Source of the DNA: Gemmatimonadaceae bacterium
GTDB taxonomy: Bacteria; Gemmatimonadota; Gemmatimonadetes; Gemmatimonadales; Gemmatimonadaceae
DNA: 64,000 nucleotides
NCBI GenBank assembly: GCA_025931335.1
Contig: JAICNG010000001.1
Span: 20,676-84,675, forward strand
Reading direction: 5' to 3'
Shown piece by piece: positions 10,230 through 53,270 of this stretch (positions are counted from its first letter, which is position 1; each line of letters opens with the position of its first letter). The notes under the pieces are model-generated. The model was not told where the DNA came from. It saw nothing but the letters and a program-made list of their open reading frames with translations, and ran no database searches. A program made the position numbers and the translations under genes.

Positions 10230-10286
10230 GGCATCCAAGTTCAAAGGGGGGACGCGGATGCCGCGGATGCAGCGGATCAGGCGGAT
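10230..10286. repeat. Left terminal inverted repeat of the GxxExxY-bearing unit
   Basis: ggcatccaagttcaaaggggggacgcggatgccgcggatgcagcggatcaggcggat; inverted copy at 10750-10804. Confidence 0.85.
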
Positions 10287-10675
10287 TTGCTGCCTTTGTT
10301 ACTGCAGAACACCCGGTGGAAGCGAGGCTCCAATCCGAAATGCAGCAGGAGCCCAACTTCAAGACTGGTTGCACGGAGATAGTTGAAGAGTTGCCGCTGG
10401 GCCGCACCGGGGAGCTCGGCGCCCGCCTTCGTTTCGACGACGACTTTTTCATCCACGATCATGTCGATTCGCTGCACGGCGAGAACGTGATCCTTATAGG
10501 CCACGTGGACGCTGACTTCTCTTGCCACGCGATGGCCGCGATCGATCAGCTCACGCTCCAGCGCCATCACGTACACGTGCTCGAGGAAGCCGAACCCAAG
10601 GGTGTTGTACACCTCGAAGAACGCGCCAATGATCGAGCGTGTCGGCCGCTCCTCCGGCAAGGGAATTCTGGTCAT
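10277..10675 (-). CDS. GxxExxY protein (PD-(D/E)XK-like)
   Basis: IIGAFFEVYNTLGFGFLEHVYVMALERELIDRG..YKDHVLAVQRIDMIVDEKVVVETKAGAELPGAAQRQLFNYLRAT..GLLLHFG. Confidence 0.9.
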   Translation of the reverse strand: MTRIPLPEERPTRSIIGAFFEVYNTLGFGFLEHVYVMALERELIDRGHRVAREVSVHVAYKDHVLAVQRIDMIVDEKVVVETKAGAELPGAAQRQLFNYLRATSLEVGLLLHFGLEPRFHRVFCSNKGSKSA

Positions 10676-10749: not shown

Positions 10750-10804
10750 ATCCGCCTGATCCGCTGCATCGGCCGCATCCGCATGTCCTTTGAACTTGGA
10801 TGCC
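10750..10804. repeat. Right terminal inverted repeat of the GxxExxY-bearing unit
   Basis: atccgcctgatccgctgcatcggccgcatccgcatgtcctttgaacttggatgcc is the imperfect reverse complement of 10230-10286. Confidence 0.85.
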
Positions 10805-13091: not shown

Positions 13092-14726
13092 ATGCGCTTT
13101 CGCGTCCTCCTTCTCGCCCTCGCGCTCACCAGTCACGTCGCGCACGCGCAGGCAGCGCAGCGACAAGACACCGTCGGCCGGGTCGACAGCCTGTTTTCCC
13201 GGTTGACCACGAGCACTCCCGGATGCGCCGTCGGCGTCTCGCGCCACGGACGAACCGCGCTCGCCAGGGCGTACGGCATGGCGAACCTCGAGTACGACGC
13301 GCCGCTCACGACGGAATCGATCATCGAAGCGGGCTCCGTGGCCAAGCAGTTCACCGCCGCCGCCGTCCTGTTGCTCGCGCAGCAGGGGAAGCTTTCCATC
13401 GACGATCCGGTGCGGAAGCACATCCCGGAACTTCCCGACTACGGTGCGCCGCTCACGATCCGGCACATGCTCAATCACACGAGCGGGCTGCGGGACTGGG
13501 GCACGGTGGCGGCCGTGGAGGGGTGGCCGCGTGGCTCTCGTGTGCACACGCACGATCACGTCCTCGACATCGTCACCCGGCAACGCTCGCTCAACTTCCC
13601 ACCGGGGAGCGAGTACCTCTACAGCAACACCGGATACAACCTGCTCGCGATCATCGTGCAGCGGGTGAGTGGCCGCGCCTTCGCCGACTTCACGCGCACC
13701 GAGATCTTCGAGCCGCTCGGGATGGCGCGCACGTCCTGGCGTGATGACTACACGCGCGTCGTGAAGGGGCGCGCGACCGCCTATTCACCCACCCGCACCG
13801 GATTCCGTCTCAACATGCCGTTCGAGAACGTGCATGGAAACGGCGGGCTGCTCACCACGGTGGAGGACCTGCTGCGGTGGAGCGCCAATTTCGACGCCGG
13901 GCACGTCGGCGGGCCGGCGCTGCTGCGCGAGCAGGTGCGCCCCGGCCGCCTTACGAGCGGGCGCGAGATCGAGTACGCCGCGGGTCTCGGCGTGTCACGA
14001 TACCGCGGCGTGCCCCAGGTGAGTCACAGCGGTGCCACCGCTGGCTATCGCGCCTTCCTCGCCCGGTATCCCGATCAGGGGCTCGCCGTCGCCGTGTTGT
14101 GCAACCACGCCGGCGCGCCCGCCGTCACCCTCGGCCACCGCGTCGCCGATCTGTTCCTCGGTGCGGCCGCCACCGATCCCGCGCCGCCGAAGACAATCGC
14201 GCTCGCGCCGGACGTGCTCGCCGCGCGCGCCGGCCTCTACCGCAACACCGTCACCTGGGAGCCGCTGCGGATCTCCGTGCGTGACGGGAAGCTCATCGAC
14301 AACCGAGGCACCGAGGCGGTTGCCCTCTCGCCCAACCTGTTCCACGCATCGAACGGTGGGCGCGCGCTGTTCGACGTTGCGCCCGATGGGCGAACGCGCG
14401 CATTGCGACTCCTGCAGGAGGATGGAGACACGCTCCTCTTTCTGCCCGTCGAGCCGTGGACGCCAGCGCCCGGCGATCTCGCGCCCTTCGCCGGAACGTA
14501 CACGAGCGATGAGGCGGCGGCGACGTTCACCCTCGTGCAGCAGGCAGGTAAACTCCTTCTGCGCCAGCGCCCGACCCTTTCCCTCGAGCTGCAGCCGCGA
14601 TATCGCGACGTCTTCGAGGTCCCCACCGGCGACATCATCCGCTTCGTTCGCGATGACAGCGGGAAGGTCATCGAGATGAGCATCTTTCTGGGGCGGGTGA
14701 GGGATTTACGCTTCAAAAGACAATGA
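13092..14726 (+). CDS. Serine hydrolase, beta-lactamase class C / penicillin-binding family
   Basis: ESIIEAGSVAKQFTAAAVLLL (SxxK), LYSNTGYNLL (YxN), DYGAPLTIRHMLNHTSGL. Confidence 0.9.
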   Translation: MRFRVLLLALALTSHVAHAQAAQRQDTVGRVDSLFSRLTTSTPGCAVGVSRHGRTALARAYGMANLEYDAPLTTESIIEAGSVAKQFTAAAVLLLAQQGKLSIDDPVRKHIPELPDYGAPLTIRHMLNHTSGLRDWGTVAAVEGWPRGSRVHTHDHVLDIVTRQRSLNFPPGSEYLYSNTGYNLLAIIVQRVSGRAFADFTRTEIFEPLGMARTSWRDDYTRVVKGRATAYSPTRTGFRLNMPFENVHGNGGLLTTVEDLLRWSANFDAGHVGGPALLREQVRPGRLTSGREIEYAAGLGVSRYRGVPQVSHSGATAGYRAFLARYPDQGLAVAVLCNHAGAPAVTLGHRVADLFLGAAATDPAPPKTIALAPDVLAARAGLYRNTVTWEPLRISVRDGKLIDNRGTEAVALSPNLFHASNGGRALFDVAPDGRTRALRLLQEDGDTLLFLPVEPWTPAPGDLAPFAGTYTSDEAAATFTLVQQAGKLLLRQRPTLSLELQPRYRDVFEVPTGDIIRFVRDDSGKVIEMSIFLGRVRDLRFKRQ

Positions 14727-14812
14727 GGAATGAGGACTGAGGAGTGAGGAATACGATTGGCCAAGAGTCCACTCAATCGAATTGCTCACTCCTCGGTCCT
14801 CATTCCTCATTC
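14721..14812. repeat. Intergenic inverted repeat, GAATGAGGA family, copy 1
   Basis: caatgaggaatgaggactgaggagtgaggaat ... attgctcactcctcggtcctcattcctcattc; about 32-bp arms between convergent genes. Confidence 0.9.
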
Positions 14813-14823
14813 TCCGGGCGGCC

Positions 14824-22296: not shown

Positions 22297-22439
22297 GGGC
22301 CACGGGTCGGGGGCCAAGGGCCGAGGGGATGGTAAGGCGAGCGGCCTGCGGCCGCTCGCTTCATCTGATGAGGCGGCAGCGGCGGAGCCGCGCCGCCTTT
22401 CCACCCCCTTGGCCCCTGGCCCCTGGCCCGCGACCCTGC
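22297..22439. repeat. Structured intergenic repeat (cloverleaf-like, CATCAGATGA linker), copy 1
   Basis: Outer arms gggtcgggggccaagggccgaggggatgg / ccaccccc..ttggcccctggcccctggcccgcgaccc enclose hairpins gcgagcggcctgcggccgctcgc and aggcggcagcggcggagccgcgccgcct separated by ttcatctgatg. Confidence 0.85.
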
Positions 22440-22450
22440 ATCATCCCCGG

Positions 22451-23902
22451 ATGAGCTTTCTCGCCCCCCTCGCCAACATCCTCCGCGCGCGGCGCGATCT
22501 CGCCGGGTTCCTCCTCGGGCTCCAGCGTGAGCAGGGAGATGTCGCGCGCGCGACGGTGGGGAATCTCCGCGTTCACCTGCTCGCGCATCCCGATCAGGTG
22601 CGCGACGTCCTCGTGACCCATCAGCGCGCGTTCACGAAGGGGCACGTACTCCAGCGCGCGAAGATCTTGCTTGGCGAAGGCCTCCTCACCAGCGAAGGGG
22701 AGTTCCACCTCCGCCAGCGTCGTCTCGTTCAGCCGGCGTTTCACCGGCAGCGGATTGCCGCGTACGCGCAGGACATGGTGGATCGCGCGTGGATCACCGC
22801 CGACCGATGGTGGGATGGCGAGACGGTCGACATGGATCACGAGATGATGCAGCTCACCCTCGCCATCGTCGCCCGCACGTTGTTCGACGCCGACGTCGAC
22901 GCGGAGGCGGACGAGATCGGCGTCGCACTCACCGAAGCGCTGCACCTCTTTCAGACCGTGTTCATCCCGGGGATGCATCTGCTCGATCGCCTCCCACTGC
23001 CGCACACACGGCGGTTCGCCCGCGCTCGCGGGCGGCTGGACGCGACCATCTACCGCCTCATCGCCGAGCGACGCGCCGAGCGCGCGCGGGGGAAGGAGCG
23101 AGGTGACCTGTTGTCGATGATGCTGTCCGCGCAGGATGCCGAAGGGGACGGCGGGAGCATGACGGACGAGCAGCTGCGCGACGAGGCGATGACGCTCTTC
23201 CTCGCCGGTCACGAAACGACCGCCAACGCGCTTACGTGGACCTGGTACCTGCTTTCCCAACACGCGGACGTCGCGGGGCGATTGCACGACGAGGTCGATC
23301 GCATCCTCGGGCAGCGACGCGCCACGGCCGACGATCTCGCGAGCCTCTCCTATACGCGCATGGTGCTGTCAGAATCGATGCGACTGTACCCGCCAGCGTA
23401 TGCGATTGGGCGGCGGGCGCTCGAGGACTACCCGGTGCCGGGGATCGTAATTCCTCGCGGGGCACTCGTCGTCGTGAGTCCACTCGTCACGCAGCGCGAC
23501 GCGCGCTGGTTTCCCGACCCGGCGCGGTTCGATCCCGAGCGATGGACCCCCGAGGCGCAGGCGGCACGACCGAAGTTCTCCTATTTCCCTTTCGGCGGCG
23601 GCACGCGTATGTGCATCGGGGATCAGTTCGCGTGGACCGAGGGGATGCTCGTGCTCGCGACGCTCGCGCAGCGCTGGCGCGCGGAGCTGGCGGCGGGGCA
23701 GCGCGTGGCGATGCGGCCGATGATCACGCTGAGGGCCCGATATGGGATGAGGTTGGTGCTACGTGAGAGGCGGCAGGGGTCAAGGGGTCAAGGGATCGAG
23801 GGATCGGAGGGATGGAGAGGCGGCGCGGTTTCGTCGCTGCCGCCTCCTTCAGATGAGCAGGCGGCCGCGGGCCGCCTGCCGTTCCATCCCCCGATCTCCT
23901 GA
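22451..23902 (+). CDS. Cytochrome P450
   Basis: AGHETTANAL (I helix), ESMRLYPPAY (ExxR), FPFGGGTRMCIGDQFAWTEG (heme loop). Confidence 0.95.
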   Translation: MSFLAPLANILRARRDLAGFLLGLQREQGDVARATVGNLRVHLLAHPDQVRDVLVTHQRAFTKGHVLQRAKILLGEGLLTSEGEFHLRQRRLVQPAFHRQRIAAYAQDMVDRAWITADRWWDGETVDMDHEMMQLTLAIVARTLFDADVDAEADEIGVALTEALHLFQTVFIPGMHLLDRLPLPHTRRFARARGRLDATIYRLIAERRAERARGKERGDLLSMMLSAQDAEGDGGSMTDEQLRDEAMTLFLAGHETTANALTWTWYLLSQHADVAGRLHDEVDRILGQRRATADDLASLSYTRMVLSESMRLYPPAYAIGRRALEDYPVPGIVIPRGALVVVSPLVTQRDARWFPDPARFDPERWTPEAQAARPKFSYFPFGGGTRMCIGDQFAWTEGMLVLATLAQRWRAELAAGQRVAMRPMITLRARYGMRLVLRERRQGSRGQGIEGSEGWRGGAVSSLPPPSDEQAAAGRLPFHPPIS

Positions 23903-23922
23903 CCCCTGGACCCCTCGACCCT
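23772..23922. repeat. Structured intergenic repeat (CATCAGATGA-linker family), copy 2; overlaps the P450 C-terminus
   Basis: ggcaggggtcaaggggtcaagggatcgagg ... aggcggcgcggtttcgtcgctgccgcct cctt cagatgag caggcggccgcgggccgcctg ... tcctgacccctggacccctcgaccctc. Confidence 0.85.
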
Positions 23923-28309: not shown

Positions 28310-28486
28310 TTGCGCCACGAGCCGTAACGGCGGTATCACAGAGGGCACCGAGACGCACACAGGGACTCACAGAGGACCCCAACCGCAAGAGCTTTTTCCA
28401 AAAGCTTCGCGGTTGCAGTCCCTCCGTGAGTCCCTGTGGATGTCTCTGTGGCCTCTGTGATAACGCTGTGACGGCTCGTGGCGCAA
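28310..28486. repeat. CACAGAGG long inverted-repeat element, copy 1
   Basis: ttgcgccacgagccgtaacggcggtatcacagagggcaccgagacgcacacagggactcac ... gtgagtccctgtggatgtctctgtggcctctgtgataacgctgtgacggctcgtggcgcaa. Confidence 0.92.
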
Positions 28487-31516: not shown

Positions 31517-31526
31517 GACCCAGCGA

Positions 31527-31620
31527 GGTGCTCGAGGTGCTCGACGTGCTCGAGGTGCTCGAGGGCGCCGCGGTTCCCCCTCGAGCACCTGGAGCACCTC
31601 GAGCACGTCGAGCACCTCGA
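31527..31620. repeat. 9-nt repeat array arranged as an inverted repeat, copy 2
   Basis: gaggtgctcgaggtgctcgacgtgctcgaggtgctcgag ... ctcgagcacctggagcacctcgagcacgtcgagcacctcga between convergent stops. Confidence 0.9.
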
Positions 31621-34283: not shown

Positions 34284-34325
34284 CGTTTCGGTGGAGGTTA
34301 TGCGGAGCTGCGTGTCCTGGTCATC

Positions 34326-34499
34326 GCGCAACGAGCCCTGACAGCATGATCACAGAGGACACCGAGACATTCACCGAGACTCACAGAGAACACCAACGGC
34401 AAGGGCTTTTTCCAAAGGCTTGCGCAGTTGCGGCTCCTCGGTGAGTCCCTGTGGATGTCTCGGTGTCCTCTGTGATAACGCTGTTACGGCTCGTTGCGC
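34326..34499. repeat. CACAGAGG long inverted-repeat element, copy 2
   Basis: gcgcaacgagccctgacagcatgatcacagaggacaccgagac ... gtgagtccctgtggatgtctcggtgtcctctgtgataacgctgttacggctcgttgcgc. Confidence 0.92.
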
Positions 34500-34515
34500 A
34501 TTGCACCAGGAACCG

Positions 34516-35463
34516 TTGTTCAAACGCGCGGACTTAAATAGACTCCCGGCCCACAGCCCCACAAGAGAGAACGCCACGCCCGCACGACCGCCTTCCACTG
34601 CTCGCGCCACGCTCTTCATCGTGCTTGGCGCGCTGTGCTTCGGCGCCATCGCGATCTTCGTCGTGCTCGCGCGCCGCGCCGGCGCCCCGCTCACCTCGAT
34701 TCTTTCGTGGCGCTTTCTCCTGGCGGCCCTTTTCCTCACCATCGCCGCCGGCGGTCTTCGAGCGCTGCGCCTGCCGCGCGCGCTGGCCGCGCGCGTGCTG
34801 CTCATCGGTGGCGGCGGGCAAGCGCTCATCTCGTTCCTCGCCCTGCGCGCACTCGATCATCTCCCGGCGGGGACGAACGCGTTCCTCTTCTACACGTATC
34901 CGGCGTGGGTCGCGCTTTTTGCGTTCATCCGCGGCACCGAGCGCGTGGATGCGCGGAGGCTCGTCGCGCTGGCGATCTCATTCGCCGGCATCGCGACGAT
35001 GGTGGGAACGCCGTGGTCCGACACCACCGATGTCCCGCTGGTCGGGGTGCTGCTGTCGTTGTCGGCCGCGGCGTGCTACGGGCTCTACATCCCCGCGATC
35101 GGGCGGTTACAGGAGGGCATTCGTCCCACGGTCGTGTCGGCGTACGTGTCGATTGGCGCTGGGATCGTTCACGTCGCGATTGGACTCGCGACCGGTGGTC
35201 TGACGGCGCGGCTCGCGCCGGAGGCCTGGGCGAGCATCCTCGGCTTCGCGCTCATCGGTACCACGCTCGCCTTCCTGCTATTTCTCCGCGGCCTGGCCGT
35301 GCTCGGCTCAGTGCGGACGGCGATCGTCTCGACCATCGAGCCGTTCTTCACCACCCTGCTCGGCGCGCTCGTCCTCGCGGAGCCGCTTCCTCCCTCGACA
35401 CTCCTTGGCGGCGTGCTGATCGCCATCGCGGTGGGGCTTCTCCAGAAGAAGAATGAGGAATGA
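34516..35463 (+). CDS. EamA/DMT family transporter
   Basis: ATLFIVLGALCFGAIAIFVVLARRAGAPLTSILSWRFLLAALFL; ten hydrophobic segments; IGTTLAFLLFLRGLAVLGS. Start codon uncertain. Confidence 0.85.
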   Translation: MFKRADLNRLPAHSPTRENATPARPPSTARATLFIVLGALCFGAIAIFVVLARRAGAPLTSILSWRFLLAALFLTIAAGGLRALRLPRALAARVLLIGGGGQALISFLALRALDHLPAGTNAFLFYTYPAWVALFAFIRGTERVDARRLVALAISFAGIATMVGTPWSDTTDVPLVGVLLSLSAAACYGLYIPAIGRLQEGIRPTVVSAYVSIGAGIVHVAIGLATGGLTARLAPEAWASILGFALIGTTLAFLLFLRGLAVLGSVRTAIVSTIEPFFTTLLGALVLAEPLPPSTLLGGVLIAIAVGLLQKKNEE

Positions 35464-35525
35464 GGAGTGAGGAAATCGATTGAGCTCGGTTGTCAATTCC
35501 TCACTGCTCGGTCCTCATTCCTCAC
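35451..35525. repeat. Intergenic inverted repeat, GAATGAGGA family, copy 3; overlaps the EamA stop
   Basis: gaatgaggaatgaggagtgaggaaatcgattgag ... caattcctcactgctcggtcctcattcctcac. Confidence 0.9.
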
Positions 35526-42492: not shown

Positions 42493-42594
42493 GCCTCCTC
42501 ATTAGTACACATCACACGATACATCGAGTGCACGTCGTTTTCGATGGGCAACCATCACAAAGATCCCGGTGGCGGGGCCACGCACGGTCTGAGG

Positions 42595-42668
42595 AACGAA
42601 TGACCCGAAGGGCGCGAATGAAATTCGAATCGATTCGAATTTCATTCGCGCCCTTCGGGTCATTCGTT
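42595..42668. repeat. Perfect 74-bp palindrome, CGAATGACCCGAA family, copy 2
   Basis: aacgaatgacccgaagggcgcgaatgaaattcgaatc|gattcgaatttcattcgcgcccttcgggtcattcgtt, self-complementary around 42631.5. Confidence 0.95.
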
Positions 42669-42711
42669 TTGTCAGGCAGTACGTGGCCCTGCGATCGGAA
42701 CCTCGAACGAG

Positions 42712-48865: not shown

Positions 48866-49025
48866 GCGATCGAAGGGATCGAAGGGATCGAAGGGGTCAA
48901 CGGGGTGGAAAGGCTGCGCGGCTTCGCCGCCGCCGCCATCATCAGATGAGCAAACGGCTGCGCGAAAGCGCAGCCGTTTTGCCTTTCCACACCCTTGGCC
49001 CTTGGCCCCAGGCCCCTGACCCTGC
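48866..49025. repeat. Structured intergenic repeat (CATCAGATGA-linker family), copy 3
   Basis: gatcgaagggatcgaaggggtcaacggggtggaaagg / cctttccacacccttggcccttggccccaggcccctgaccc outer arms; ggctgcgcggcttcgccgccgccgcc, linker atcatcagatgag, caaacggctgcgcgaaagcgcagccgttttg. Confidence 0.88.
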
Positions 49026-51208: not shown

Positions 51209-51327
51209 GGCAGGAGTCGGGAGTCAGGGATCAGGGGGTGTCAGGGTCGAGGAGGGCAGGGCCCGCGCGAGTCGTTCTCCTCGCACCTTCCCCTGACACC
51301 CCCTGATTCCTGACTCCTAACTCCTAG
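51209..51327. repeat. Intergenic inverted repeat (GGAGTCRGGAGTCAGGGATCAGGGGGTGTCAGGG); overlaps the DEAD-box gene stop
   Basis: ggagtcgggagtcagggatcagggggtgtcaggg ... cccctgacaccccctgattcctgactcctaactcc. Confidence 0.88.
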
Positions 51328-53075: not shown

Positions 53076-53270
53076 GCGCCACGAAGGCCACAAAAGCGGA
53101 ACACCCGAATGACCCGAATCTGACGGCAAAAGGGCCGAATACGGCAACGGCAAATCGTTACTCGAGACGGTCTTGCCCCCGACTCGTGCAGTTGCCGTTG
53201 CCGTATTCGGCCGTTTGCGGTTCAGATTCGCGCGATTCGGCTGTTCGAGCGTTCCGTGGCCGTTGCGCCC
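53076..53270. repeat. Intergenic inverted repeat, CGAATGACCCGAA family, copy 3
   Basis: ggccacaaaagcggaacacccgaatgacccgaatctgacggcaaaagggccgaatacggcaacggcaa ... ttgccgttgccgtattcggccgtttgcggttcagattcgcgcgattcggctgttcgagcgttccgtggcc. Confidence 0.9.

Follow-up and report, generated by a model that had tools for sequence, protein, structure and literature searches.

The question raised by this locus is what kind of DNA can repeat itself between genes while keeping its fold and changing most of its letters. The window, meaning the whole 64-kb stretch analysed, contains three copies of a repeat of about 140 bases that folds into a Y shape, here called the Y-element. A reading made from the sequence alone had placed three elements of common architecture in the window, and all three were recovered there; they align mutually over the core, with copy 1 on the opposite strand to copies 2 and 3. 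Written on the strand whose centre is TCATCAGATGAG, the plan of the element is a 7- or 9-nt tandem-repeat arm, GGTGGAAAGG, hairpin 1, CTCATCAGATGAG, hairpin 2, CCTTTCCACC and the complementary arm. The parts in the window are as follows.

22297-22436, minus strand: Y-element copy 1, complete, with GGCCAGG-type heptamer arms, between divergent genes
22372-22397, minus strand: copy 1 hairpin 1, GGCGGC-GCGGC-TCC-GCCGC-(T bulge)-GCCGCC
22360-22371, minus strand: copy 1 central near-palindromic motif, TCATCAGATGAA
22337-22359, minus strand: copy 1 hairpin 2, perfect, GCGAGCGGCC-GCA-GGCCGCTCGC
23772-23922, plus strand: Y-element copy 2, with mixed arms, overlapping the open 3' end of a P450 frame
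23819-23844, plus strand: copy 2 hairpin 1
23846-23857, plus strand: copy 2 central motif, degenerate, CCTTCAGATGAG
23858-23878, plus strand: copy 2 hairpin 2, CAGGCGGCCGCGGGCCGCCTG
48866-49025, plus strand: Y-element copy 3, with mosaic arms, filling the gap between convergent genes
48912-48937, plus strand: copy 3 hairpin 1, GGCTGCGCGGCTTCGCCGCCGCCGCC
48939-48950, plus strand: copy 3 central motif, TCATCAGATGAG
48952-48979, plus strand: copy 3 hairpin 2, AAACGGCTGCGCGAAAGCGCAGCCGTTT

Folded as DNA and compared with dinucleotide shuffles, copies 1, 2 and 3 gave z = -6.9, -8.5 and -7.5, and copy 1 folded as RNA gave z = -9.1. The left arm of copy 3 consists of GATCGAAGG nonamers and the right arm of GGCCAGG heptamers, and the distal stem is poor. 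The cytochrome P450 frame (PF00067) at 23766-23902 is not closed by a stop codon of its own but reads through copy 2 and ends at a TGA in its right arm (23900-23902); the orthologue in the sister genome likewise reads into its own element.

The three copies belong to a large family. The central motif TCATCAGATGAG occurs exactly 33 times in the draft genome of the host, a soil bacterium of the Gemmatimonadaceae, and its reversed control not at all, a count that rules out a chance origin of the motif and bears out the expectation of the sequence-only reading that further copies would be found (at least 33 with an exact core, plus degenerate ones). BLAST and a covariance model add such degenerate copies to the exact-core set, which brings the host total to roughly 40-55, and the motif matches share the Y-element architecture with the exception of one chance match. 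The 13-mer CTCATCAGATGAG has 31 occurrences in the host and 37 in the sister species, the only other genome of the host genus searched, and was absent from the 97 further relatives searched. Outside the genus the covariance model returned three weak matches only, two of which lead to a related element in a complete genome (G048) from another genus of the family; the remaining match is no palindrome. Pattern matches outside Gemmatimonadota (L034 and L037) were dismissed as chance, being devoid of hairpins or arms. Carriage on plasmids or phages was rejected, as plasmids gave arm-like matches of 30-35 nt only and phages none, and a search for single-hairpin half-elements between GGAAAGG and CCTTTCC yielded one deletion derivative and a few unrelated hairpins only. 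A literature search found no description of the Y-element. The host and sister genomes are draft MAGs, the host assembly being 81% complete, and genes were called in this analysis. Contig ends carry many elements in both draft genomes, and at three of them (L078, L101 and L109) an identical unique flank lies on both sides of the element, a fold-back that the palindrome probably induced during assembly.

The two hairpins differ in a consistent manner. Of 68 copies, 56 carry precisely one bulge in hairpin 1, a single base of the 3' strand; this base typically separates a basal stem of 6-7 bp from an apical stem of 5-6 bp, and its identity is free (T in 22, A in 21, G in 10 and C in 3). In the window copies the 3'-strand bulge of hairpin 1 adjoins the triloop. 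Hairpin 2 is normally perfect, lacking a bulge in 58 copies, and four copies have a single bulge on its 5' strand, as if the hairpin pair had been swapped. In 59 of about 68 copies hairpin 1 closes with a C(TNC)G loop, which reads C(GNA)G on the opposite strand. GNA triloops of the C(GNA)G kind form unusually stable DNA mini-hairpins, a stability that we infer to be relevant to the Y-element. The hairpin feet GGAAAGG and CCTTTCC are present in nearly all copies, and the stems comprise 1349 G-C, 147 A-T and 12 G·T pairs (12 of 1508).

The sequence-only reading took the copies to show compensatory change, and the pairing is indeed maintained. With a fixed two-hairpin structure applied to 34 copies, 96.4% of hairpin cells were paired and both sides had changed in 96 cells, compared with 30.8 ± 4.3 after shuffling; none of 500 shuffles reached this number, and slid structures gave at most 22. 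The claim of a multi-copy structured element with stems kept through paired changes is therefore upheld, as is that of covariation above background. The double changes arrive in blocks, however, and the stems fall into recurring types, about six for hairpin 1 and about five for hairpin 2, so that the second stem does differ between copies and stay paired, as had been noted, but is drawn from a few modules rather than varying freely. Host arms come as GGCCAGG heptamers, GATCGAAGG nonamers or TCAGGAG heptamers, three types with periods of 7, 9 and 7, and arm and hairpin modules occur in many combinations. Of 30 host copies, 27 have left and right arms of matching type, compared with a mean of 10.3 and a maximum of 21 under permutation; arm mosaics are few, and copies 2 and 3 of the window are among them. 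What was called compensatory change resembles the outcome of exchanged modules, or of palindrome repair at the DNA level, more closely than that of stepwise covariation in an RNA, and RNA selection behind the kept pairing is possible but not required. Of the proposed selection on a folded RNA or a DNA cruciform, the cruciform or folded DNA option stays live; independent drift under RNA selection is not supported as the source of most changes, given that modules recur, that copies at orthologous sites are no closer than paralogues and that wobble pairs are rare. As a caution, strong 'covariation' in intergenic repeats can be obtained from module exchange and DNA-level maintenance of palindromes, with no functional RNA involved.

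One reading of the paired changes, which are significant, and of the constant single-stranded linker is that of a structured regulatory RNA, a riboregulator or ribozyme built around this linker, which on the minus strand has CTGATGAG, reminiscent of the hammerhead core. We regard this as extremely improbable. No Rfam covariance model, hammerhead included, reached its gathering threshold and a lax scan returned chance matches of the microRNA type of hairpin, and the copies lie 3' of many different genes in both orientations, with no common downstream gene class seen in an unsystematic look. The hammerhead itself was rejected because the order of segments does not fit, the GAAA after stem II is misplaced on inspection and the Rfam search was empty. 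Another possibility is growth in situ, in which slippage of 7- or 9-mers lengthens hairpins and template switching between arms keeps them palindromic, with no mobility at all. The quasi-tandem arms of period 7 or 9, the many unrelated palindrome families with such arms in the same genomes and the near absence of G·T pairs would all fit; yet a 96-nt core with the same motif and hairpin modules is common to about 70 unlinked loci in the two genomes, which excludes independent origin and leaves this account very unlikely for the element as a whole. It is refuted for the core and may still describe the origin of the arms.

Placement relative to genes is strongly biased. The gaps holding the 52 copies with two scorable neighbours were convergent in 27 cases, tandem in 22 and divergent in 3, compared with 13, 37 and 28 of 78 background gaps longer than 100 bp (convergent excess, p = 3e-5; divergent deficit, p = 5e-5); copy 1 was correctly described as lying between divergent genes, yet it is an exception. 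The distance from element centre to stop codon has a median of about 78 nt and clusters at 70-90 nt, which equals half the length of the element, so the element starts at the stop codon. The adjoining stop is TAG in 44 of 87 cases, compared with 39 of 154 in the background (p = 1e-4), and this TAG is often the outermost heptamer unit (TAG-GAGTCAG-GAGTCAG). Element ends are often TAG, which hints at a TA target-site duplication, but this applies to just 28 of 72 ends.

One explanation for this placement is that Y-elements are bidirectional terminators or 3'-end RNA stabilisers, selected for structure with sequence left free, which we consider a tentative option and which is compatible with a mobile palindrome. 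Besides the position directly after stop codons and in convergent gaps, it would explain the very stable RNA fold and the finding that each of the four convergent gaps scored as orthologous has a palindrome in host and sister alike, with unrelated sequences in one case. The Y-element shares the 3' position of a Rho-independent terminator but lacks its U-tract: in the copies listed, neither orientation shows a run of T behind the hairpins. In two sister copies (L077 and L088) an ordinary hairpin-plus-T-run terminator already stands between the stop codon and the element, so termination is not the general reason for the placement. Moreover, copy 1 lies between divergent genes, termination needs neither a conserved central motif nor a bulge, and identical placement has been published for REPs (PMC3733652). 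An effect of the elements on transcript 3' ends would nonetheless be plausible.

REPs, BIMEs and REPINs are palindromes tagged with GTAG and CGTC (PMC3733652, PMC3116915, PMC8266576), and REPs sit no more than 20 bp from the 3' end of a gene, to which they often supply the TAG stop (PMC3733652). Like these repeats, Y-elements are palindromic, present in high copy number, extragenic, located within about 20 bp of gene ends on the 3' side, enriched in convergent and tandem gaps and often provided with a TAG stop at the end, and their hairpins likewise form an inverted pair with a hairpin bulge. Perhaps, then, the Y-element is a classical REP or REPIN moved by a Y1 tyrosine transposase (RAYT) or an IS200/IS605-type enzyme reading the bulged hairpin. 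The requirement of E. coli TnpA-REP for bulged, imperfect hairpins (PMC8266576), the inverted hairpin pair, the TAG stops that often come from REP ends (PMC3733652) and the one Y1_Tnp gene in the sister genome speak for it. We nevertheless consider it unlikely. There is no Y1_Tnp gene in the host (81% complete) or in the complete G048, which bears related elements, hence no cognate RAYT in either, and the sister gene lacks the flanking palindromes that are usual for a RAYT gene; a Y1 transposase was accordingly rejected as the obvious mobiliser. Where a REP has GTAG or CGTC as the tag of its hairpin foot, the Y-element has GGAAAGG and a near-palindromic centre of 12-13 nt; it measures about 140 nt with long repeat arms, compared with 20-50 nt for a REP hairpin; and its stems are modular, with several types per hairpin position, so that structure is conserved and sequence is not. 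Although it is REP- or REPIN-like in appearance and position, the Y-element has no such tag, no sequence-conserved hairpin and no RAYT found in the host or G048, and it is filed as a variant of the extragenic palindromes and not as a REP.

Other known repeats offer partial likenesses. As in MITEs and the imperfect palindromes of the ERIC/IRU type, the Y-element is short, non-autonomous, palindromic, dispersed and intergenic; unlike them, it has no demonstrated parent insertion sequence, fixed terminal sequence or target-site duplication, and its copies carry different tandem repeats as arms. The BOX elements of Streptococcus pneumoniae are modular intergenic repeats with stem-loop folds and exchangeable parts, and the Y-element resembles them in being modular and forming stem-loops but is unrelated in sequence and has two hairpins inside complementary heptamer or nonamer arms. 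An extrahelical base is shared with integron attC sites, whereas no GTTRRRY box was seen on inspection of the copies listed. The TAACTGA heptamers of Beggiatoaceae form intergenic arrays of 7-nt units that are mostly direct only (PMC4679880); the unit length is common to both, but the arrays of the Y-element form complementary palindrome arms around a hairpin core.

Comparison with the sister species bears on mobility. At the sites of copies 2 and 3 and of at least two other host copies, the sister has an element in the same place with other arms, other hairpins or both, and sharing an orthologous site does not bring copies closer to each other than to non-orthologous ones (ranks 5 to 26 within the other genome). 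The site of copy 1 is free of an element in the sister genome, which might also reflect a deletion there. One Y-element site of the sister is occupied in the host by a different palindrome with GATCGAGGG arms, a single small hairpin and the same TAG stop. Orthologous gaps in the sister are often occupied by a different palindrome, and the gaps at 31524-31619 and 42566-42698 hold unrelated palindrome families in the two species. Such replacement of palindrome by palindrome at orthologous gene ends allows sister species to be compared directly for how their gene-end signals turn over. Among the TCAGGAG-armed copies, some share 92-96.5% identity between species, the top values being the best of many comparisons, although the orthologous flanks reach about 80-87% only; this suggests mobility, by transfer or recent spread. 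No copies are identical, so any recent activity would be hypothetical, and a clean Y-element insertion with a target-site duplication was not obtained, the one tight empty site belonging to a different palindrome family.

The Y-element is a dispersed family with conserved shape, 3'-end placement, module combinations, mosaic arms and species-to-species turnover. We propose that Y-elements are probably genus-specific extragenic palindromes that behave as non-autonomous REP/REPIN- or MITE-like DNA. Copies would spread between loci and related species, and resident copies, to judge from the mosaics, would swap arms and hairpin modules by recombination. Insertions would persist mainly right behind stop codons and between convergent genes, where the copies are found and where a hairpin symmetric on both strands may be harmless or even useful as a putative bidirectional 3'-end signal. 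The conservation of the bulged C(TNC)G-loop hairpin, the GGAAAGG/CCTTTCC feet and the near-palindromic centre, with stem sequence free within limits, suggests that the folded single DNA strand may be recognised by a putative trans-acting enzyme. The Y-element adds to the extragenic palindromes a larger, modular type whose shape (symmetric feet, one-base bulge and C(TNC)G loop) persists longer than its sequence, and it lends itself to a clean test of whether DNA hairpins can be recognised by structure alone.

The related element of G048 is roughly 340 bp long, with long complementary arms around three internal hairpins and feet of the form GGTGGAAA.../...TTTCC; in several copies the outer hairpins have a one-base bulge and a triloop. 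It is present in about ten or more copies in G048, occurs also in two congeners and lies mostly 4-34 bp behind gene ends. It is conceivable, if doubtful at present, that Gemmatimonadaceae harbour a class of mobile palindromes in which long arms of tandem repeats enclose bulged hairpins, two or three in number. An enzyme other than Y1/RAYT would move them, reading the shape of a folded DNA strand and not its sequence, and they would replace one another as exchangeable modules at the 3' ends of the same genes.

Other palindromes are frequent, and the window has about one long palindrome per 5 kb. Those at 14719-14814, 31524-31619, 35448-35523 and 51212-51325 are intergenic with quasi-tandem arms of 7- or 9-nt units (GAGGAAT, GAGGTGCTC, and TCAGGAG with another core). 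Two members of a 180-200 bp palindrome family (CACAGAGGACACCGAGA...), at 28310-28486 and 34315-34511, both lie between divergent genes, and at both places the versions in the sister genome are shortened or altered. Long palindromes of the CGAATGACCCGAA family occupy 42566-42698, with a perfect stretch at 42595-42668 (37-nt arms), and 53099-53246; in the sister, the gap orthologous to the former is taken up by an unrelated palindrome with (AACTGCG)n arms. At 10254-10286 and 10750-10782, about 460 bp apart, two complementary arms of 33 nt, made of GCGGATGCN repeats, surround a small frame (10277-10675) and are possibly a palindrome that gained an insert. A second TCAGGAG-armed family has a TGTCAGGG core and includes L156:6233-6366 as well as about 14 loci in the host; where one of its copies occupies a 142-bp gap in the sister, the host gap measures 43 bp and is free of palindromes. 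In a genome from another family of the order (G188), the 53 matches to the reversed pattern are (GAGGACT)n heptamers, and heptamer-armed repeats may be widespread in that family too.
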